A stretch of DNA of 39,191 nt from Lysobacterales bacterium (GTDB lineage: Bacteria > Pseudomonadota > Gammaproteobacteria > Xanthomonadales > SZUA-36): contig JABAAB010000080.1 in NCBI GenBank assembly GCA_014238945.1, positions 1 through 39,191 of the forward strand, in the 5' to 3' direction. The notes under the pieces were generated by a model. That model was given only the letters and a program-made list of their open reading frames with translations, made no database searches and was not told where the DNA came from. The translations under genes and the position numbers were made by a program. Positions 1,241 to 37,552 of the stretch are shown here, in pieces (within the stretch, counting starts at the first letter, position 1; each line of letters starts with the position of its first letter).

Positions 1241-2227
1241 TCAAGTCCCACTGGATCGGCTCAGGCTGGCATCACCGGAATGAAGTGTGTGCATTTTCTC
1301 TCCAACCTTCAACAAAAGAGCGCCCTGCCCGTCAATCCCTGCAGATATTCCTTTAAGCTTTCCGGTACCAGTGACAACATCTATTCTCTGACCTTTCAGG
1401 CCATCCATCGATTCCCATTGTGCCCTGAATGGTTCAAACCCATCTGCTTCGAAACGGGTCAAATGCTCCACCAGTTCGTCGAGCAACCCGGTGAGAAGTT
1501 GGTTACGGGAACTGCCGGGAACATGGCTGTTCAAGTCCGTCCAGGGCTGGTCTATGTTGCTGGCAGATGCGGCTTCGGGCATGTGCACATTGAGCCCCAC
1601 ACCCGCAACGATGTGAAAACACCCATTGGTGTCAAGCTGGCTTTCCACCAGGCAGCCCCCCAGCTTTTGTCCGTGCAACAGCAAATCATTGGGCCATTTG
1701 ATGCGGTGGTCGCTGAGCCCGGACTTGCTTAGCGCCCGGGCAGCAGCCAGCGCGACAACCAGCGACAGACAACCCATGGATGAGCTTGACCGGGGAAACG
1801 ACCAGCCTAACGACAGGTAGAGATTCCTGCCGAAAGGAGAATGCCAATTCCTGCCCCGTCTGCCGCGCCCGGCGGTCTGGTGTTCGGCTGCAATGGCCAT
1901 GGCGTGCCGGTCTTCAATGGGTAATTTCTGAATGGCCAAATTGGTTGAGTCGAGGGATGCAATTACCCTTAAACCGGAAAGTTTGTCGCGTGTGGGTTCG
2001 TTCACTTGTGCCAGTATTTGATTCTGATCCAGCAGTTCCAGAGGGTGCGTCAGGCGATAACCCTCGCCAACGACAAACTCTGTCTCGATATCGAGATCAG
2101 CCATGGCCGCAGCAAGCTCAACCACCCTGTCCGGCGAACAGTCCAATTCAGCGGCAATCGACTCCAATACCCGGTATCTGTCGGTAGAAAGACAGTGGAC
2201 CAGTTCAACTACATCAGCGGTGCTCAA
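1241..2227 (-). CDS. birA: Bifunctional biotin-[acetyl-CoA carboxylase] ligase / biotin operon repressor BirA
   Basis: A 328-residue protein. Residues 1-60 form a winged helix-turn-helix typical of repressor-type BirA. The catalytic biotin protein ligase domain contains the biotinyl-AMP loop GRGRRGR (120-126), KWPNDLL (about 178-184) and GGCLVE. A C-terminal SH3-like domain follows. It attaches biotin to the AccB carrier of acetyl-CoA carboxylase, and the N-terminal domain suggests it also represses biotin synthesis genes. The start is TTG at 2227-2225 and overlaps the plsY stop (TTGA), so the two are translationally coupled. An ATG further in would remove the helix-turn-helix. Placement beside plsY and the fatty-acid-kinase-like gene makes this a small lipid-synthesis cluster. 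Confidence 0.95.
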   Translation of the reverse strand: MSTADVVELVHCLSTDRYRVLESIAAELDCSPDRVVELAAAMADLDIETEFVVGEGYRLTHPLELLDQNQILAQVNEPTRDKLSGLRVIASLDSTNLAIQKLPIEDRHAMAIAAEHQTAGRGRRGRNWHSPFGRNLYLSLGWSFPRSSSSMGCLSLVVALAAARALSKSGLSDHRIKWPNDLLLHGQKLGGCLVESQLDTNGCFHIVAGVGLNVHMPEAASASNIDQPWTDLNSHVPGSSRNQLLTGLLDELVEHLTRFEADGFEPFRAQWESMDGLKGQRIDVVTGTGKLKGISAGIDGQGALLLKVGEKMHTLHSGDASLSRSSGT

Positions 2228-2865
2228 TGTTTACGAAAGAAAAGCTGCATGCGTTCAAAGCGGTTTTCGGTTCCTTCACTCATATGCCGCAGGTTTCGGC
2301 GGTGGGTGAACATCAGGAACAGGGCCGTTGCTGTGGTAAATATCACCAATTCCCGGCCGTCGAGCCACCAGGCGGAGGGGATGAGGCTGAAACCGGCCAG
2401 CACGGTCGAAAGGCCAACATAACCGCTCATGACCATGGAAACCAGCCAGACCACTGCCAAAGGCAGCAACAACCAGGGTTCAATGATCATCATTGCCCCA
2501 ATCGCGGTCGCTGCGCCTTTGCCACCCCGAAAACCATGCCAGATGGGGAAACAGTGACCCAGCATAGCGGCAAATCCGCACAGCATGACCTCACCGGCGG
2601 TTGCCGGTATATGGATCAGTAATTCTTCTGAACCCCCCAGGCCCAGATAAGGTACCCACAATGCCGCAATAACGCCTTTGCCCACGTCTATGATAATCAC
2701 GCCCAAAGCAAACAGTGCCCCCTGGGTCCGAAAGGCATTGGTACCGCCGGCATTGCCACTGCCCATGTCGCGGATATCAACATCTTTCAGCTTACCCAGA
2801 AACAGACTGCCTGAAACAGAGCCCAGCAGGTAGGCCAGCAGGATATTGATGATAAATATCGTCAT
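2224..2865 (-). CDS. plsY: Acyl-phosphate:glycerol-3-phosphate acyltransferase PlsY
   Basis: A 213-residue inner-membrane protein with about seven hydrophobic segments. It has the PlsY signature loops: GSGNAGGTNAFR (about 36-47), the glycine-rich acyl-phosphate loop GFRGGKGAAT, and a C-terminal HRRNLRHMSEGTE. It transfers an acyl chain from acyl-phosphate to the sn-1 position of glycerol-3-phosphate, the first step of phospholipid synthesis. Acyl-phosphate normally comes from PlsX acting on acyl-ACP. Here the gene immediately upstream encodes a protein resembling fatty acid kinase, which would supply acyl-phosphate from free fatty acids. It starts 47 bases after the end of that gene and overlaps birA by 4 bases. 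The length is normal for the family. Confidence 0.96.
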   Translation of the reverse strand: MTIFIINILLAYLLGSVSGSLFLGKLKDVDIRDMGSGNAGGTNAFRTQGALFALGVIIIDVGKGVIAALWVPYLGLGGSEELLIHIPATAGEVMLCGFAAMLGHCFPIWHGFRGGKGAATAIGAMMIIEPWLLLPLAVVWLVSMVMSGYVGLSTVLAGFSLIPSAWWLDGRELVIFTTATALFLMFTHRRNLRHMSEGTENRFERMQLFFRKH

Positions 2866-2912
2866 TTGAAGTTGGGTCCAGTCCTGGTCTGTTCAGTAAA
2901 GTCCATATAGGC

Positions 2913-4751
2913 TCAATTCAATTCCACGGGTTGGGGCAGAAATCCCACGATCAATCCACCCGGACCCAGGTGCACACCCAGCGCCGGTCCTGCCTCGGTA
3001 ATGTGGCAGGAATATACCCTGGTGTGCCTGCCCAGTATATACCTTCGAAGCGCCCGGGCACCCTCAATATTGGCACCGTGGGCGATCAATATCCGATAGG
3101 AAGTTTCGCGGTCCATTTTGTTTAACGATACCCTGCCCAGGGCGGCGGGATTTGCACCGGACCCTGGTGTAACTGATGCCAGTTTGAATTGGCCTTTTTT
3201 CGTGGTCAACAGCGGGCTGACGTGCAGTATCCCGGTTAGCGTTTTAACCCATGCAGGCAGACGTCCTCCGCGTACCACGTAGGACAGGTCATGGGGCATC
3301 GCGAACACACAGGTCATCGGCCGATATTTGAACAGCAGCGCTTCGATCTCGTCCAGCGACATTCCCTGCTGAGCAGCCTCAGCTGCAATCATGGCGAGAC
3401 AACCCTCCCCCGAACTCCCGCTCATGGTGTCAAATACCCGCACACGGTGATTACCAAACGGTGCTGCTGCAGAGCGTGCACCCTGGGTAGTACCACTCAG
3501 GGCTTCGGACAGACCTACGGTTATGACGTCATAACCATGACCGGTGAGCAAATCATACTGACGGCTGAAATCACCCGGAGGAGGTTGTGACGTCTTGGGC
3601 CATTCTTCGCAATCAATCAGCATACGGTACAGCTCGGCTGGTTGTAACGACACGTGGTCAATATATTCCCTCGCACCAAAATTCAAGCGGGCAGACACCA
3701 TGTGAATGGCCAGGCGTTCCTGCTCTTCATGGGGTATGTCGGCACCCGAATCTGTCACCACTGCAACGTGACCTGACTGGTTCATCAGACCGTGCTGACG
3801 AAGCATGTCATCCGCCTTTTGCTGCTGGAGTGCCCCAAACTGCTCACATGCCAGGTAGGCCTCTCCCGGGTTATTTACGTGGATGTGAACCCGTACACGG
3901 GTTTGACCACCCGCCACGACCAGAGAACTGCAGTCGAGTTGCTGTAACTGCCTCATGATGGCAATACGATCAAGGCCATCGCCTTCTATCACACACTCGG
4001 TACAAAAGCGGTGCGCATCCACGTCCATTTCCATCAAGGTGCTGCCGGCCGAAGACAGCTGGTCAAAATCGACGGAATCCGCTTCGGTTTCACCACCATT
4101 GATGTAGGTTCGGATTCCTTCCAGCAGGTCAACGAATCCTTGTCCACCTGCATCCACCACACCAGCCTGCTTCAATACCGGTAACAGGTCGGGTGTTCCG
4201 GCGAGGGATTTTCTGGCGCTCTCCAGACCCGTTTCAAACAGCACCCTTATATCATCGACACCCTGGCTGACCGCATCTTCCAGGGCATTGGAAAAGTCTT
4301 CCAAAACCGTGGGAAGTGTACCCACCACCGGCTCTGACATGGCGCTCCATGCAGACTTTGAACCCGCAATGCTGGCCACCGCCAGTTGTTCTGCTGTCAG
4401 GGATTCAAGACCGTGCACCGCCCTACTGAAGCCATGTAAATACTGCGCCATGATGGCACCTGAATTACCCCGGGCTGCGTCCAGTGAAGCCTCTGCAATC
4501 CGATTCATCAATTCACCCATCGTCAGTTTTTTGTCGCCGGGTTTCACAGCAGCGTGTATGACTTCGTGGATGACCTTGAAACTGAAGGCCATATTGGTAC
4601 CGGTATCACCATCGGGAACCGGGAAAATATTGATCCTGTCGATGTATTCCCGACGCACGAAAAGATGCCTGATCCCGGCGGACAGGCCGCGGATCATCCG
4701 GTCCGCATCAATGTAGGAGATAGCTGGAACCACTTCTGTTTTTCTGGCCAT
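2913..4751 (-). CDS. DhaL (DAK2)-DegV fusion, fatty acid kinase FakA-FakB-like protein
   Basis: Seen: with the ATG at 4751 the protein has 612 residues. Residues 12-215 match the DhaL kinase domain of FakA, with the metal/ATP loop FPVPDGDTGTNM (43-54), ARGNSGAIMAQ (93-103), PVVGTLPTV (141-149) and VVDAGGQGF (198-206). Residues 240-310 resemble the FakA middle domain (CTECVIEGD, VRVHIHVNNPGE). Residues 328-612 are a full DegV/FakB domain with VVTDSGAD (331-338), TSQPPPGDF (387-395), LSEALSGTTQ (414-423), VVRGGRLP (492-499) and GPALGVHLGPGG (588-599). Known: FakA phosphorylates fatty acids bound to separate FakB proteins in Firmicutes. Inferred: one chain does both jobs and feeds PlsY just downstream. 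The frame is open to an ATG at 4898, but the extra 49 residues look non-homologous, so the internal start is preferred. Substrate is not proven, and DegV-type proteins are often annotated only by fold. Confidence 0.85.
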   Translation of the reverse strand: MARKTEVVPAISYIDADRMIRGLSAGIRHLFVRREYIDRINIFPVPDGDTGTNMAFSFKVIHEVIHAAVKPGDKKLTMGELMNRIAEASLDAARGNSGAIMAQYLHGFSRAVHGLESLTAEQLAVASIAGSKSAWSAMSEPVVGTLPTVLEDFSNALEDAVSQGVDDIRVLFETGLESARKSLAGTPDLLPVLKQAGVVDAGGQGFVDLLEGIRTYINGGETEADSVDFDQLSSAGSTLMEMDVDAHRFCTECVIEGDGLDRIAIMRQLQQLDCSSLVVAGGQTRVRVHIHVNNPGEAYLACEQFGALQQQKADDMLRQHGLMNQSGHVAVVTDSGADIPHEEQERLAIHMVSARLNFGAREYIDHVSLQPAELYRMLIDCEEWPKTSQPPPGDFSRQYDLLTGHGYDVITVGLSEALSGTTQGARSAAAPFGNHRVRVFDTMSGSSGEGCLAMIAAEAAQQGMSLDEIEALLFKYRPMTCVFAMPHDLSYVVRGGRLPAWVKTLTGILHVSPLLTTKKGQFKLASVTPGSGANPAALGRVSLNKMDRETSYRILIAHGANIEGARALRRYILGRHTRVYSCHITEAGPALGVHLGPGGLIVGFLPQPVELN

Positions 4752-15490: not shown

Positions 15491-17371
15491 ATGTCAGGCC
15501 ACTCACAGTTCCAGTTGTTCAAACAACGGCGATTCATGCCGTTTTTCACAACCCAGGCACTGGGAGCCTTTAACGACAACGTTTTCAAGAACGGTTTGGC
15601 CGCCATGCTGGTCTTCGAGAGCAGCCAACTGGCAGGCTTGAACACCAACCAGGTCGTAAACCTGAGTGCGATGACATTTATCCTGCCATTCTTTTTGTTT
15701 TCCGCCCTGTTCGGCCAGTTCGCGGACAAATATGAAAAGTCCAGGCAGATTCGCAATATCAAGTTGTTTGAGATTGTCATCATGCTGCTGGCGACCGTTG
15801 GATTCTGGCTTAACTACCTGCCACTGTTGCTCGGAGTACTGTTCCTGCTCGGTTTTCAGTCCACCATGTTTGGTCCTATCAAATACGGCATCATCCCGCA
15901 GGTATTGGATCGCCGAGAACTGGTCGGTGGTAATGCACTGGTCGAAATGGGCACCTTTGTCGCCATCCTGGCCGGAACCATTGCAGGACCCCTGTTGATG
16001 GGAATTGAGTCTGCCTGGCCCGTCTGGGTCAGTGCCGTTGCGCTGATCACTGCGATCGCGGGCTACCTCGCCAGTCGCAATATCCCGATCGCGGAGGCGG
16101 TTGCACCGGATTTGAAAGTCAACTGGAACTTCGTGACCGAAACGGTACGCAATATCCGTTTTATCAGCGGCAACAGGGTGGTGCTCAACAGCGTGCTGGG
16201 TATTTCCTGGTTCTGGTTTTTTGGTGCGACATTCCTGGTGCAGATCCCCAGTTTTTCGGAAACTGTCATGGGTGGTGATGAAAGACTGATGTCCACCTTG
16301 CTGGCCATGTTCATCATCGGCATCAGCACCGGATCGCTGTTGTGTGAACGCCTTTCCGGTGGCCAGATCGAAATTGGCCTGGTGCCCTTTGGTGCCATGG
16401 GACTGACCCTGTTTGGAGCCGATATGTATTTTGCCAGCCCGACCGAGCTGGTTAACTTCACAGGGTTGGGCAACTTTTTCTCCGAACCGGCGAACTGGCG
16501 CATCGTGTTTGACCTGTCCATGATCGGTGTTTTCAGTGGTTTTTACATCGTTCCCCTGTACGCACTGGTTCAGCAACGTACCGAGAGCGCACACCGTTCC
16601 CGCGTGATTGCGGGCAATAACATCCTCAATGCCCTGTTCATGGTGGTATCCGCGATATTTGCCATGATTATGCTGGGCAGCGTCGGGTTTACCATTCCCG
16701 AGTTGTTCCTGGCCACCGCCATACTCAACCTGGTCGTGGCCATCTACATCTTCAGCGTCGTGCCCGAATTCATGATGCGGTTCCTGGTCTGGATACTGGT
16801 CAATACCCTGTACCGCGTGGAGGTCAGAGGAATCGAGAACATACCCCGCCGTGACGCAGTCATCATCGCAGCGAACCACGTGAGCTTTGTCGATGCTCTG
16901 CTGATCGGTGGTGCGATCCGGCGTCCGGTGCGGTTCGTCATGTACTACAAGATCTTCCAGATACCGGTGCTTAGATTCATCTTCAAAACCGGCAAGTCGA
17001 TACCGATTGCAGCACGTCATGAAAATCCGCAGATTCTGGAACAGGCCTATGAACGAATTCACCAGACCCTGAACAACAGCAACGTACTGGGTATATTCCC
17101 CGAGGGTGGTATTTCAAATGACGGCGAGATTGGCACCTTTAAGAAAGGTATCGAAAAGATTGTCGGTGAAAAACCTGTACCGGTGGTGCCCATGGCGCTG
17201 TGCAACCTGTGGGGTTCAATGTTCAGCCGGCGTGATCCCCTGCTCAAACGCCGGCCATACAAATTCCGGGCATTGATCGAACTGCGTATCGGCCGCCCTA
17301 TTCCACCTGGAGAATTGAGTTCGGAACGTCTGGAGGAAGAAGTCCGGCGTCTGCGTGGAGAAGACCGTTAA
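15491..17371 (+). CDS. LplT-PlsC fusion: lysophospholipid transporter with acyltransferase domain
   Basis: A 626-residue protein. Residues 1 to about 415 are a major-facilitator transporter of the LplT type (ALGAFNDNVFKNGLAAMLVF near the N terminus, GFQSTMFGPIKYGIIPQ later). Residues 430-620 are a PlsC acyltransferase with the H-x4-D motif NHVSFVD (His463), the FPEGG block (536-540, for the usual FPEGTRS) and VPVVPMAL. The flippase part would bring lysophospholipid across the inner membrane and the acyltransferase would re-acylate it. In E. coli LplT works with Aas, which carries PlsC plus an acyl-ACP synthetase domain. The synthetase domain is missing here, so acyl-ACP must come from elsewhere. 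It is the last gene of the plus-strand run and converges on DUF2007. Confidence 0.93.
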   Translation: MSGHSQFQLFKQRRFMPFFTTQALGAFNDNVFKNGLAAMLVFESSQLAGLNTNQVVNLSAMTFILPFFLFSALFGQFADKYEKSRQIRNIKLFEIVIMLLATVGFWLNYLPLLLGVLFLLGFQSTMFGPIKYGIIPQVLDRRELVGGNALVEMGTFVAILAGTIAGPLLMGIESAWPVWVSAVALITAIAGYLASRNIPIAEAVAPDLKVNWNFVTETVRNIRFISGNRVVLNSVLGISWFWFFGATFLVQIPSFSETVMGGDERLMSTLLAMFIIGISTGSLLCERLSGGQIEIGLVPFGAMGLTLFGADMYFASPTELVNFTGLGNFFSEPANWRIVFDLSMIGVFSGFYIVPLYALVQQRTESAHRSRVIAGNNILNALFMVVSAIFAMIMLGSVGFTIPELFLATAILNLVVAIYIFSVVPEFMMRFLVWILVNTLYRVEVRGIENIPRRDAVIIAANHVSFVDALLIGGAIRRPVRFVMYYKIFQIPVLRFIFKTGKSIPIAARHENPQILEQAYERIHQTLNNSNVLGIFPEGGISNDGEIGTFKKGIEKIVGEKPVPVVPMALCNLWGSMFSRRDPLLKRRPYKFRALIELRIGRPIPPGELSSERLEEEVRRLRGEDR

Positions 17372-19382: not shown

Positions 19383-20642
19383 CTAATCCGGTGGTGATCG
19401 CCAGTCCTCAAAGGTCACATCATTCAGATCCACAGGTTGAGAAGTCACCCACAGCACCAGTCGATGACCGTCTGAAAACCAGGGGTCGCCGGTGAGATTA
19501 CCAGCAGGCTGATCCATGGACACTGCACCGACTCCACGGACGTAGGCTGCTTTTTCGAGTGCCTGGGCATAGGCGAGGTCCTCGAGCAGGTACTCACGGG
19601 TTTCATCCACGTCCGGATCGATTTTATGGGTGGTAATGGTCTTTACAGTCCAGCGCACCCCAATATCACGGGAAATCTGACCCAACCACACCAACTGACC
19701 GTGGAACCACACCGGTGCAAGCCACAGACGCAGATGATTGCGTTCATGGATGTTGCCACGGGTCTTCTGAAAGGCAATGTCCTGTGGACGACCAAATACA
19801 TAGAGACCACTTACCGGTGAATAACGGTATTCACCACCCCTGATAAAAGACTTCAGAGTCTTCCACGCGGTCCCTGTGGTGACCGTTTCGGTCTCGTCCC
19901 ATCCGGCACGGATGAAGGCTACATAGACATCCACCAAATCGCCAATGATCACCAGATTGACGGGGTCACCGGAGCCCTTTGTTTTTTTATCCGTGGTACA
20001 GCATACCTGCCCTTCCAGCCACTCGATCAGTTCGTCCGCCGACAGATCACTGACGGCTTCACGGGGGTACATTCCTTCCCAGTCGACGTTGTAGTGATCC
20101 ACCCTGAGACCGGGTACGGGTACAAAAAACGTGAACGATTCAAATAGTTCCGGTGCGATGATGTCGACATTGAAAGCCTTTGACCCTTCGTCCAGCTCAC
20201 TGAAAACAAACCCACTGCGTGTTTCACCACCGTGAATCTGCAGATCCATTCCGGACCCGAGCAGGTTTTGCCCTTTCGCCAGCGTTCCGGCGTTCGGGTC
20301 GGTGTCAATATTGGCCACCTCGACCGGGGTGTAATAGACCGGGTCCAATCCAACCGGCAGAAATGACACCTTCCGTTTTGTATCATTGGTGATTTCCAGC
20401 CATACCGATTGAATACCACGCTTATAAAGATCAATACCAAACCGCGCCTTGCTCTCTTTTGCACTTGGGACCGCTGCGGTGACGGAAATTCCGTCCCGGG
20501 TTTGGGTCTGGGTACGGGACATGAAATCCCCCTCATTCAGCGCTGACTCCATGTGCAAAGGCCCGGAACAAGCCGAAAAGACAAAAAACAGGCCAACCAT
20601 TATCAAGCTTGAAAACCCCGGATTTTGGCCTGGTAATCGCAC
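19383..20642 (-). CDS. Lipoprotein with LssY_C domain, intact paralog
   Basis: A 419-residue protein starting at GTG 20642. A signal peptide ends in FSAC (Cys25 lipidated). About 190 residues of unassigned extension follow, then an LssY_C domain at about 210-375. Its marks are CCT, DPVNLVIIGD, AGWDETE, YRYSPVSGLYVFGRPQDI, RNHLRLWLAP, VWLGQISRDIGVR and THKIDPDVDETREYLL. LssY_C was named from the Legionella lss secretion locus and is often joined to a PAP2 phosphatase. No such domain is here, and no biochemical role is established. Its start overlaps the stop of the paralog upstream by one base (TAGTG), so the two are translationally coupled. The export and tandem pairing suggest a shared envelope role. 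Confidence 0.83.
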   Translation of the reverse strand: MRLPGQNPGFSSLIMVGLFFVFSACSGPLHMESALNEGDFMSRTQTQTRDGISVTAAVPSAKESKARFGIDLYKRGIQSVWLEITNDTKRKVSFLPVGLDPVYYTPVEVANIDTDPNAGTLAKGQNLLGSGMDLQIHGGETRSGFVFSELDEGSKAFNVDIIAPELFESFTFFVPVPGLRVDHYNVDWEGMYPREAVSDLSADELIEWLEGQVCCTTDKKTKGSGDPVNLVIIGDLVDVYVAFIRAGWDETETVTTGTAWKTLKSFIRGGEYRYSPVSGLYVFGRPQDIAFQKTRGNIHERNHLRLWLAPVWFHGQLVWLGQISRDIGVRWTVKTITTHKIDPDVDETREYLLEDLAYAQALEKAAYVRGVGAVSMDQPAGNLTGDPWFSDGHRLVLWVTSQPVDLNDVTFEDWRSPPD

Positions 20643-21887
20643 TACTTTGCCCTCAACCCGGGTGGTTTATCCCACTGCTGAGTTTGCATTTCGAGCATGG
20701 AAAAAGGATCACCCGATAACCACATCAACAGACGGTAACCATCGGTGAAATACTGGGTGCCATGAATGTCTTCGCGAAATTGATCCGTTTCTACGGCTTC
20801 ACCAGAATCAAGCCAGGCAAGATGCATCAGGCTCTGGGAATACCACAGGTTTTGCATCAGGAAATTTCGGCCGTCGGTCAAATCCTGCGCCAAATGACGC
20901 CAGGGGCAGTGCATTCTGACGGCCGATAATATGCGTAATCCTGACCATCCAGACGGGTTCACCTTCCAACAACCAGGGTGACAGCCAGATGTTCAGTTCG
21001 TTTCGGACCATTCCACCCTGGCGCTTAAATCGGAATACGGCATCCGGCTGCCGTCCAAAAAGATAGTGAGCCTTTGCAGTATCAAATCCCGTTCGTAAAC
21101 TGGTCCATTCTGTCTCATACCAACCAGCCCTGAGTAGCGCCTGTTGAATTTCATTCCCGTGACCCACCAGGACAACCGCAACCGGGAGCCCATTTGGCTG
21201 CCCCACGTGGTTGCTGGTACAACATGGAAAACCGGACAGAAAACTGCGAAACCCCGCAGCATCAAAGTCCCGCAATTCAGAGGGTTGATACAGGTCATCA
21301 AAGTCGACCTCGGCATGATCGGGGACAAACCCTGGTACCTCCAGTAAGAACGCAAAAGAGTGATCCTCATCCCCACCACTGAAAACATCTACCAGCAGAT
21401 TTTTTGTACCTGGATCGACATGGGTGAAAACAAATCCGCTCGCCGTTTCCCCTGCCCCGATATAACGAGGCATTGCCAGATCAAATAAACGCCGCTCCAT
21501 CTCACGGCGTGACTGTTTTGAATAGCCTTTTCGATGCATAAAGGCGACTTCAAAAGGTGAAAAATAATCCCGGTCGCTGCCGGTGTGTGCATAACGGATA
21601 CGTCGCGAACCCTTGTTGCTTATGCTTAGCCAGACGGGCTGAATACCCCGGTCGTATATAGGAAAACCAAAAATTGACCCGGCTTGCTCCCTGCCGGGCA
21701 CAGCGACCGTCACCGTCACCTTGCCCTCGGTTTGGGTGCTGGCAGAGGACTCCAGATCGATAGATTCAATTGGCAGGTAATGGTACGGCGCCGATGCACA
21801 TCCCAGCAGACCGGCAAAGAAAAGAACCAGCAAGCTTCTCAAAACTGCTGTACCGTGAATGAACAACGATAAAATCGGATCATACAT
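20642..21887 (-). pseudogene. Second LssY_C lipoprotein, frameshifted in a C run
   Basis: The frame from ATG 21887 gives a lipoprotein signal (LLGC), the same roughly 190-residue extension as its neighbour, and most of an LssY_C domain up to RITHIIGRQNAL. The remainder (PWRHLAQDLTDGRNFLM through WDKPPGLRAK) is in another frame to TAG 20642. Removing one base from the C4 run on the minus strand (20903-20906) joins both into about 415 residues, matching its intact paralog in length. Shared marks are RGIQPVWLSIS, FTHVDPGTK, PDHAEVDFDDLY, CCT, AGWYETE and YLFGRQPD. The domain histidine of RNHLRLWL is replaced (RNELNIWL). It is a recent pseudogene, or a homopolymer sequencing error. Confidence 0.78.
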
Positions 21888-35265: not shown

Positions 35266-37552
35266 ATGAGACATAATATCCATACTGCTTACCCTGGCTT
35301 TGGCCGCGTGTGGTGGAGATACCGCCACTGACATCACGGCCGCAGCAGGTTCTGAAACACCGACGGAAGCCAGTGAATTTTCGATCTCGGAATGCGGGGT
35401 CAAAACCAAGAATGTCGAAGGCTTCGGCGGTGTGATCGCCGAGTCGTACGATGACTCGCAGGAATGGTGGACACCAGAGGAATTGCCAAAAGAAGGGTCC
35501 CCCAATGTCATCATTTTCCTTTTGGATGATGTCGGGTTTGCACAGGTTGAAAGTTTCGGTGGTCTGATCCATACCCCCAATATCGATGCACTGGCCGATA
35601 ATGGTCTGCGTTATAACAATTTCCACACTACGGCACTTTGCTCGCCGTCCCGCGCCACGCTGATGGCGGGGCGCAACCCGCACTCCATTGGTCTCGGCAG
35701 CCATGCCCTCACGGCCATGGGTTTCCCGGGCTATAACGCGATGATGCCTGAATCCGCAAAATCGGTGGCCAACTACCTTGAGGCCGAGGGTTATGTCCAT
35801 TATGCCCTGGGCAAGTGGGACCATAAACCGCTGTATGAAGTCTCGCAGGTCGGACCTTTTGACCGCTGGCCCAGCGGTGAAGGATTTGAGCATTCCTATG
35901 TATTCATGGCTGCAGATGTGCACCAGTTTGTACCGGTGATGTGGAATGATCACACACCCGAGCCCTATCGCAAATCGGTCCATCTCGACCAGGACCTCGC
36001 CGACCGGGCCATCCACTGGATTACCGGGCACAAATCGATCAAACCTGACCTGCCTTTCATGATGTTGTGGGCGTCGGGTTCGATGCACTCACCTCACCAC
36101 GCACCCGACAGTCACATAGAAAAATACCGTGGTAAATTCGATATGGGCTGGGACAAGGCAAGAGAGCAGATAATTGCACGCCAACTCGAATTGGGCATCA
36201 TCCCACCGGATACAAAACTGACCGAAGGTATTGATGAGATACCTGCCTGGGACTCTTTAAGTAAAGATGAAAAACGACTGTATGCACGTCAGATGGAGGT
36301 GTTTGCCGCACAGATGGAATGGGTGGATCTTCAGATTGGACGTGTCGTGGCCGAACTTGCTCGTATTGGTGCGTTGGACAACACTTTGATATTTGTAACC
36401 GCCGACAATGGCGCCAGCGGTGAAGGTGGGCTTCGGCACCTTCAACGAAACCTATGTACTCAACGGCTTGCAAACCCCGTTTGACTCCAGCCTGGAGCAA
36501 ATCGATGAATGGGGCACGGCATCGACCTACCCACACTACCATGCCGGTTGGGCCATGGCAGGCAACACCCCGTTCCGTTACTTCAAGCAAAGCGAACATC
36601 GTGGCGGGCAGACGGACCACCTGGTGGTGCACTGGCCGGATGGAATAAAGGCCAAGGGTGAAATACGCGACCAGTACCACCACATCGCAGATATCGCCCC
36701 AACCATCATGGAAGCCGCCGGTATTGAAGTACCCGATGAATACCATGGCGTCGCCCAGCAACCGATGGACGGTGTCTCCATGATGTATTCATTCGACCAG
36801 GCCGATGCTCCGAACAGGAAAAAACGCCAGTATTACGAAATGTTCGGCAACCGCGCCATCTGGTCCGAAGGCTGGAAAGCCGTTACCCTGCACGCCAAGC
36901 GCATGCCCTGGGACGTCAACGTGGTGCTGCCATTTGACGAGGAAGCCTGGAAGTACAACGTTTATCCATTGTATGACGACATGATCAAACGCATCGGTGT
37001 GCAGCAGGATCGTCTGTTTGGCAATCAGAAGGAGTTCATCTACTTCGCACCCCGAGCCATTCGTATTGCTGAGAAATCATCGGCACCGGTCAAGAACCGT
37101 ACCCACACCATTGAAACAACGATTGATCTATCCGGCACACATGAAGGTGTCATCGTTGCCGTCGGTGGCATGACCGGCGGATTTTCGATGTTTGTAAAGG
37201 ACCATCGCTTGTATTACGACTACAACTTCCTTGATGGCGTGCACTACATTCTGAAATCTTCCCCATTGCCGAAAGGACCGACCTGAAGTTCAATTTTATC
37301 AAGACCAAGGAATTCGGTGGTGTTGGCGAGCTATACGTCAACGGTGACAAAGTCGACAGTATCGACATGCCGCAGATGCATATCAGCACCTATTCATTGG
37401 CTGAAACCTTTGATGTGGGCCGTGATACCGGTACCCAGGTGTCGGATTTGTATACTGGGGTGTTTGAATTCGATGGTTTGCTTGACCGTGTGGTTTTCAA
37501 TGTATCGGATGATGAGTCAGAGCCACCACTGGTACCGGGTTCGTACCGCTAG
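35266..37552 (+). pseudogene. Sulfatase lipoprotein with three apparent frameshifts
   Basis: The best start is ATG 35266, with Shine-Dalgarno aggaga at 35255-35260. A one-base insertion near 35269-35275 shifts into the frame that reads LLTLALAACGG, a lipobox. That frame holds NVIIFLLDDVGFAQ and the formylglycine motif CSPSRATLMAGR (Cys codon at 35639-35641). A second lesion, one extra base in GGG 36428-36430, joins TADNGASGEGG to FGTFNETYVLNG. A third, one missing base near 37270, leads to DLKFNFIKTKEFGG and the end VPGSYR. Repaired it is a sulfatase of about 760 residues with a C-terminal jellyroll-like part. It would hydrolyse a sulfate ester in the periplasm. Two hairpins follow. Confidence 0.82.

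Follow-up and report, generated by a model that had tools for sequence, protein, structure and literature searches.

A putative single-chain fatty acid kinase encoded next to plsY in Lysobacterales

Results

The locus

The DNA analysed here, called the window, comprises 39,191 nucleotides, the forward strand of contig JABAAB010000080.1 of a Lysobacterales bacterium (GCA_014238945.1, G000 below). On its minus strand it encodes a protein in which a DhaL kinase domain, a FakA-like middle domain and a DegV/FakB domain follow one another in one chain (the fusion), with plsY and birA downstream (Table 1). The original prediction, made from the letters alone, placed complete DhaL and DegV domains and the middle region in a single protein with plsY starting just past its stop. 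Both parts are borne out at the coordinates it gave, and all three domains match their Pfam models well above the cut-offs. PlsY passes the TIGR00023 equivalog cut-off (154.1 against 137.2 bits).

Table 1. Genes and domains of the fusion–plsY locus, in window positions
Feature	Position	Strand	Basis
Single-chain putative fatty acid kinase, DhaL + FakA-like middle + DegV/FakB, 612 aa	2913..4751	-	Pfam, family models, residues, fold
DhaL (Dak2) domain, residues 44-214	4110..4622	-	Pfam Dak2, 6.4e-33
FakA-like middle (metal/dimer) domain, residues 248-320	3792..4010	-	Pfam FakA-like_M, 1.3e-13
DegV/FakB domain, residues 329-605	2937..3767	-	Pfam DegV, 3.4e-59, profile 2-278 of 280
Gap from fusion stop to plsY ATG, 47 bases	2866..2912	-	Counted from frames
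plsY, acyl-phosphate:glycerol-3-phosphate acyltransferase	2224..2865	-	TIGR00023 equivalog
birA, biotin-protein ligase	1241..2227	-	Domain/family model match

The ATG at 4751 appears a fair choice of start for the fusion, since homologues begin to align at about residue 2-25; the same open frame extends upstream to 4898, and the exact start codon is unproven. A frameshift or assembly artefact was rejected, as the frame is open in the full-length homologue matches, and the stops in the matches of two relatives (G031 and G055) sit within the outermost codons of the matched stretch, outside the frames used. Among 83 locus pairs with the fusion and plsY on one strand, a set in which some genomes are counted twice, the automatically chosen frames share 1, 4 or 8 bases in 23. 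A scan for promoters and terminators found nothing that clearly exceeded shuffled sequence.

Domain architecture and predicted structure

The layout is that of FakA(N+M)–FakB, with the DegV domain at the position of FakA's own C-terminal domain. The FakA–FakB-like fusion that had been predicted is therefore refined: DegV substitutes for the FakA C-terminal domain and is not appended after it. With FakA (YloV/VfrB), the Firmicutes kinase subunit, the chain shares the DhaL and middle domains, the nucleotide/Mg residues and the Cys-His-His set. It differs in carrying a full DegV domain where FakA has its FakB-docking domain: the FakA/YloV family models (NF038248, TIGR03599) recognise no such docking domain in the fusion and align to position 312-314 of 530-549 only. 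The DegV cut-offs, in turn, are passed widely (PF02645, 200.9 against 27 bits; TIGR00762, 204.9 against 99.7 bits). The DhaK–DhaL dihydroxyacetone kinases also share the DhaL domain (a weak match to PRK14479 and dak_ATP), whereas the Pfam scan reported no DhaK domain for the fusion. Databases hold the domains of the fusion separately.

According to a study of Staphylococcus aureus FakA (PMC9136124), this protein consists of an N domain (ATP), an L/M domain (dimer, Cys-His-His) and a C domain for FakB docking, the last having a FakB-related fold without the tunnel-forming insertions. This relationship allows the fusion to be seen as a FakA with a functional fatty-acid carrier for its C domain. 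The same study states that FakA(N+L) lacking FakA-C stays active with an 11-fold higher FakB Michaelis constant (0.99 versus 0.09 μM). Therefore a tether could replace FakA-C, and tethering would be expected to cure the raised constant.

An AlphaFold2 model was built from 45 sequences (predicted local distance difference test 91.4, predicted template modelling score 0.84) and searched with Foldseek, of which the first 50 rows were considered. The N-terminal part resembles FakA-N 7rzk with a template modelling score (TM, by target length) of 0.96 and a root-mean-square deviation (rmsd) of 1.5. The C-terminal part resembles the fatty-acid-binding DegV protein 2dt8 (TM 0.91 by target length, rmsd 2.2) and S. 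aureus FakB1 (TM 0.85-0.88 by target length), aligning along the whole length of FakB. In the structural comparison that the original prediction proposed, the predicted DegV fold is FakB-like throughout. Streptococcus suis FakA chains match the whole model with low TM (0.32 by query, 0.36-0.37 by target, rmsd 25 Å); therefore the relative placement of the domains differs or is unsure.

Catalytic and ligand-site residues

In the DhaL domain, Asn41 (just before the Pfam match), Asp47, Asp49, Thr50, Asn96 and Asp200 correspond to the S. aureus FakA nucleotide/Mg residues Asn32, Asp38, Asp40, Thr41, Asn82 and Asp185. Cys250, Glu252, His289 and His291 of the middle domain correspond to FakA Cys240, Glu242, His282 and His284, and Thr387, Ser419, Arg497 and His594 of the DegV domain to the FakB site residues Thr62, Ser95, Arg173 and His270. 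FakA numbering was set by eye from the alignment and the paper, FakB numbering was counted from the alignment. None of these 14 published catalytic and site residues varies among 56 fusion proteins of the order and the class, that of the window being one of them (56 of 56). A second, wider set comprises 45 fusion proteins from many phyla, some of them Lysobacterales; in it Asn32, Asp38, Asp40, Asn82, Asp185, Cys240, both histidines of the middle domain, Ser95 and Arg173 are again invariant, Thr41 differs in 1 and Glu242 in 2. Trp501 of the window's protein lines up with Trp180 of FakB1, which inserts into the membrane. Loss of FakB tunnel residues was a weak point foreseen in the original prediction. 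Of the key FakB site residues, Thr62, Ser95, Arg173 and His270 are kept in the 56 proteins; Arg205, discussed below, is not kept in the window's protein.

Could the protein be an ordinary FakA, its C-terminal DegV-like domain merely better recognised, that still needs a separate FakB? The FakA C-terminal domain is itself FakB-related, and a review calls it a DegV domain (PMC9136124, PMC10146087). Yet the fusion matches the DegV profile almost end to end where the FakA models stop, its fatty-acid-site residues are invariant, and its model follows the whole of FakB, whereas FakA-C has no tunnel insertions. The genome G000 also has no second match to the fusion query that would indicate a separate FakA or FakB, though this query does detect stand-alone DegV-like frames in two genomes of the class (G391, G352). 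We therefore consider this alternative very improbable, and a FakA with its own C-terminal domain was rejected on the full Pfam DegV match and the early end of the FakA models. More broadly, in the order sample described below every fusion-positive genome but one (61 of 62) gives a single match, the exception being G564 with two pieces; therefore no separate FakA or FakB is seen.

Co-occurrence with PlsY and PlsX in Lysobacterales

Among 61 relatives, the window's own genome included, the fusion is matched in 47, PlsY in 49, PlsX in 37 and PlsB in 60, and the fusion and PlsY occur together in 46. With these 47 matches and the full chain in many phyla, the fusion is not a product of chance. Four of the matches consist of fragments or pieces only (G005, G020, G024, G036). 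The fusion is present in 17 of the 18 relatives that have PlsY and no PlsX, the exception being G042, whose PlsY is below the cut-off. PlsX is matched in the relatives that keep plsY with a decayed fusion (G005) or with none (G006, G053), although the match of G053 consists of three pieces with a stop. Five relatives have PlsX and neither of the other two proteins. In G005 the decayed fusion lies beside plsY (contig C33, locus L071) and only its C-terminal end remains.

We also drew 150 genomes, at least 95% complete, across Lysobacterales/Xanthomonadales; at least 35 of them also belong to the 61 relatives, so the tallies overlap. Here the fusion and PlsY are each found in 62 genomes, both in 61, each alone in one, and neither in 87. 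The lone fusion gene (G536) runs into the end of a 3761-base contig, and the lone PlsY (G053) is of the usual gammaproteobacterial type. Fifty-nine of the 61 pairs lie on one contig, no more than 150 bases apart; in G014 and G047 the two genes are on separate contigs. Within families f1, f2 and f12 and genera g301 and g302 the fusion and PlsY are jointly present or jointly absent. The linkage to plsY, which the original prediction proposed to check and on which it staked itself, is therefore tight within the order. Half of the carriers, 31 of the 61 genomes with both genes, lack PlsX, and these span 21 genera and 8 families. All 31 order genomes with PlsY and no PlsX carry the fusion, interrupted in one of them (G564, contig C9, locus L189, where it lies beside plsY). 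PlsX without the fusion or PlsY occurs in 21 genomes.

G000 itself (98% complete) has one fusion match, one PlsY, which is that of the window, one PlsX on another contig and one PlsB. Since PlsX and PlsB are both present, the fusion kinase would be an added entry to PlsY in this genome and not the sole one. The proposed route from free fatty acids to PlsY without an acyl-acyl carrier protein (acyl-ACP) step thus need not apply to the source genome; it fits only the PlsX-less relatives.

PlsY partners and trees

We took Ser36, Arg46, Lys116, His188 and Asn191 of PlsY as the glycerol-3-phosphate-binding residues of Aquifex aeolicus PlsY, in a register set by motif. They are kept in all 69 aligned PlsYs that partner a fusion. 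These 69 come from 84 loci with both genes, 15 being omitted: same-genome repeats, cut-off genes, the divergent L145, and also L188 and L189. At the probable counterpart of A. aeolicus Ser142, in a register of our own reading, 54 of the 69 have Gly and 15 have Ser, and this position is possibly a mark of the fusion-linked PlsY type.

Trees of PlsY and of the fusion were quick maximum-likelihood trees with supports from the approximate likelihood-ratio test of Shimodaira–Hasegawa type (SH-aLRT). A branch with support of 99 splits the fusion-linked Lysobacterales PlsYs from the usual gammaproteobacterial PlsY. Of 26 linked Lysobacterales PlsYs, 25 group (support 82) with the PlsY of 7 of the 9 class genomes in the tree whose fusion is unlinked, and with one from a fusion-less genome; the PlsY of locus L038 falls outside the fusion-linked Lysobacterales group. 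In the fusion tree the Lysobacterales proteins stand together (99) within a gammaproteobacterial set, which nests among plsY-linked proteins of Fidelibacterota. A transfer between these phyla is possible.

The wider class and other phyla

A sample of 377 genomes across Gammaproteobacteria gave 18 fusion matches. Thirteen outside the order were counted as fusions; two of the other five come from order members (G000, G047) and three are partial (G177, G275, G391). Among the 13, the match of G353 covers residues 23-518, that of G409 residues 8-524, and that of G082 holds a stop. These 13 and 60 further genomes, taken at fixed steps out of the 377, formed a sub-sample of 73. Of the 60, which have no full-length fusion, 58 have PlsY and 56 of these also PlsX. 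PlsY without PlsX is rare except where a plsY-linked fusion exists, since only 2 of the 58 show it.

In a scan of named loci across phyla we considered the best 80 of 564 confirmed matches, and the counts below refer to these. They fall in Fidelibacterota (Marinimicrobia), Bacteroidota, Bacillota, Spirochaetota, Gemmatimonadota, Calditrichota, Coxiellaceae, Woeseiaceae and others, and thus the fusion is not the oddity of a single genome. The matches listed include a protein of a Xanthomonadales metagenome-assembled genome (MAG) with 71% identity and more distant homologues in Wenzhouxiangella, Dokdonella, Arenimonas, Pseudoxanthomonas and Lysobacter; judged by these relatives, G000 falls in Lysobacterales/Xanthomonadales. 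plsY adjoins the fusion in 27 of the 80 loci, 26 times downstream on the same strand and once divergently (L145). Sixteen of the 26 do not belong to Pseudomonadota: 11 are Fidelibacterota, 2 Calditrichota, and one each CSSED10-310, Bipolaricaulota and unclassified. A search for PlsX in 50 of the named genomes gave no match for 11 of the 27 linked and 5 of the 23 unlinked ones, whose completeness is not given and some of which are small MAGs. The linked genomes without a PlsX match include the isolates Arenimonas oryziterrae, Pseudoxanthomonas sp. Root630 and Lysobacter daejeonensis.

Five divergent fusions of other gammaproteobacterial families (L056, L059, L060, L064 and L067; 24-30% identity) have no plsY nearby, and PlsX is present. 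Two loci (L087, L114) lie on MAG contigs titled Janthinobacterium lividum and Klebsiella pneumoniae, titles that may be binning or naming errors.

The gene order alone might be inherited without functional meaning. Genomes of one order are related, and birA follows plsY in most Lysobacterales loci, which makes the block partly vertical synteny. But the two genes come and go jointly within the families and genera named above, PlsX absence is otherwise rare among PlsY-positive genomes of the class, and the fusion–plsY order recurs in Fidelibacterota, Calditrichota, CSSED10-310 and Bipolaricaulota. No birA match was found in the searched loci of other phyla, several of which end soon after plsY. 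Of the alternatives weighed here we hold this one for the least probable. Chance synteny was rejected on the adjacency in the order, the recurrence in other phyla and the joint presence and absence; birA itself is probably a neighbour only.

A third alternative is that the protein phosphorylates a DegV-held lipid or small carboxylate other than long-chain fatty acids for PlsY. Ligand choice in DegV proteins is set by pocket shape, according to passages of a review (PMC10146087), and many fusion-bearing phyla among the matches listed have no plsY link. Against this stand the 61 order genomes with both genes versus one with each alone, the presence of the fusion in every PlsX-less genome of the order that has PlsY, and its adjacency in several phyla to PlsY, whose donor is acyl-phosphate. 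Hence, we regard another ligand as improbable and suggest a fatty acid.

Other features of the window

On the plus strand, 15491-17371 encodes a 626-residue protein in which a major facilitator superfamily (MFS) transporter domain (LplT-like, below the cut-off) is fused to a PlsC-like acyltransferase. It matches PRK06814, the acyl-ACP--phospholipid O-acyltransferase family, covering only 4-583 of 1140 positions, with the second half missing. At 35300-37286, also on the plus strand, two overlapping frames in different phases resemble what we take to be parts of one sulfatase-like enzyme, and the gene looks broken or misassembled. On the minus strand, 19383-21887 holds two adjacent long genes that share similar stretches as read by eye; they are probably tandem paralogues.

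Discussion

We suggest, with a probability of roughly 0.83, that the fusion is a one-chain fatty acid kinase making acyl-phosphate for the adjacent PlsY. The single-chain kinase of the original prediction is supported by the FakA- and FakB-like parts of the chain, the published catalytic and carboxylate-site residues and the FakB-like predicted fold, and the mechanism could proceed as follows.

Step 1: The DegV domain would take a free fatty acid out of the membrane. Tethered to the kinase, it would stand in for FakB together with the FakB-docking domain of FakA.

Step 2: The DhaL domain would bind ATP and two Mg ions. The active enzyme would also need the middle domain, with Cys250, His289 and His291, a domain that probably dimerises the protein. 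The DhaL/middle unit would then phosphorylate the fatty acid held in the tethered DegV domain, giving acyl-phosphate.

Step 3: The acyl-phosphate would pass to PlsY, which would acylate glycerol-3-phosphate to lysophosphatidic acid. This free-fatty-acid route would run alongside PlsX and PlsB in the window's genome, while in PlsX-less relatives the fusion would be the sole known supplier of the PlsY substrate. There, salvaged fatty acids would enter at sn-1 only, because without PlsX acyl-phosphate cannot reach acyl-ACP by known routes, and PlsB would serve the chains made de novo.

The PlsX–PlsY pathway likewise feeds PlsY with acyl-phosphate. The fusion differs in that its substrate would be free fatty acid and ATP, not acyl-ACP, and in that PlsX is not found in half of the order genomes carrying the fusion and PlsY. 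We consider it likely that at least 8 groups of Lysobacterales/Xanthomonadales at family level have lost PlsX and that the one-chain kinase alone drives PlsY in them. Part of the membrane lipid would then receive its first acyl chain straight from free fatty acids and ATP, isolated from the acyl-ACP pool.

Several observations weigh against the kinase–PlsY route. The protein misses the FakA equivalog cut-off (161.8 of 975 bits), the YloV cut-off (249.8 of 396.1 bits) and the FakB1 equivalog cut-off (104.9 of 350 bits). In the wider set of 45 proteins Thr62 is replaced by Ser in 4 and His270 differs in 5, so that Thr62, Ser95, Arg173 and His270 are kept in 41, 45, 45 and 40. Compared with FakB, whose fold (TM 0.85-0.91 for FakB/DegV proteins), four site residues and Trp180 equivalent the fusion shares, its DegV domain is covalently linked to the kinase and two arginines are not kept: FakB Arg205 aligns with Pro529 and Arg209 with Ala533. 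Arg205 is said in passages of PMC8892158 to be completely conserved and to contact both the membrane and FakA. Of the 56 proteins, 6 have Arg in the Pro529 column; two residues further along, 35 have Arg or Lys and the window's protein has Ser; the register of Arg205 across the family is therefore unsure, with Arg205 itself not kept in the window's protein. Relaxed constraint at both positions would be expected, because there is no FakA-C to dock to, and the membrane contact is left unexplained.

The distribution has its exceptions as well. G564 lacks PlsX, yet its fusion frame is interrupted. The fusion, PlsY and PlsX are all missing in 66 of the 150 order genomes and 6 of the 61 relatives, and therefore the route is dispensable there. 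Three genomes, G042 (L068), G145 (L073) and G343 (L074), have PlsY without PlsX or the fusion; two of these PlsYs sit on long tree branches, and the tree does not include the third. In all 13 fusion-positive Gammaproteobacteria outside the order PlsX is present and plsY is not adjacent (0 of 13), so the predicted plsY link does not extend to the wider class. Across phyla, 53 of the best 80 of 564 loci have no adjacent plsY, although contig ends and divergence can mask it. Finally, genomes of one order share ancestry and are not independent, and the co-occurrence counts take no account of kinship.

No described DhaL–DegV or FakA–FakB fusion, nor Fak in proteobacteria, was found in the open-licence PMC literature, as covered by titles, abstract openings and passages. 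A 2023 review describes FakAB as a Gram-positive strategy (PMC10146087), and a 2026 paper gives Xanthomonadales PlsB and PlsC only, with PlsY absent (PMC13400652). The genomes contradict the absence of PlsY from Xanthomonadales and call into question FakAB as a Gram-positive strategy. An exogenous-lipid route outside Firmicutes, as originally proposed, is consistent with the plsY-linked fusion in the order and again in other phyla, though not as a peculiarity of one genome.

Two published models of how FakB encounters FakA conflict, according to passages of PMC11617999. A tethered acyl carrier would bear on how the two meet and may ease solving of the active complex. A 2026 preprint on Escherichia coli proposes that LpxC may be inhibited by acyl-phosphate (PMC13060810). 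Should acyl-phosphate have no way into acyl-ACP where PlsX is lacking, fatty acids salvaged by this route would be found at sn-1 only, which is a directly testable signature. If our suggestion is true, there would be an acyl-phosphate shunt that dispenses with PlsX, in an order from which PlsY is said to be absent.

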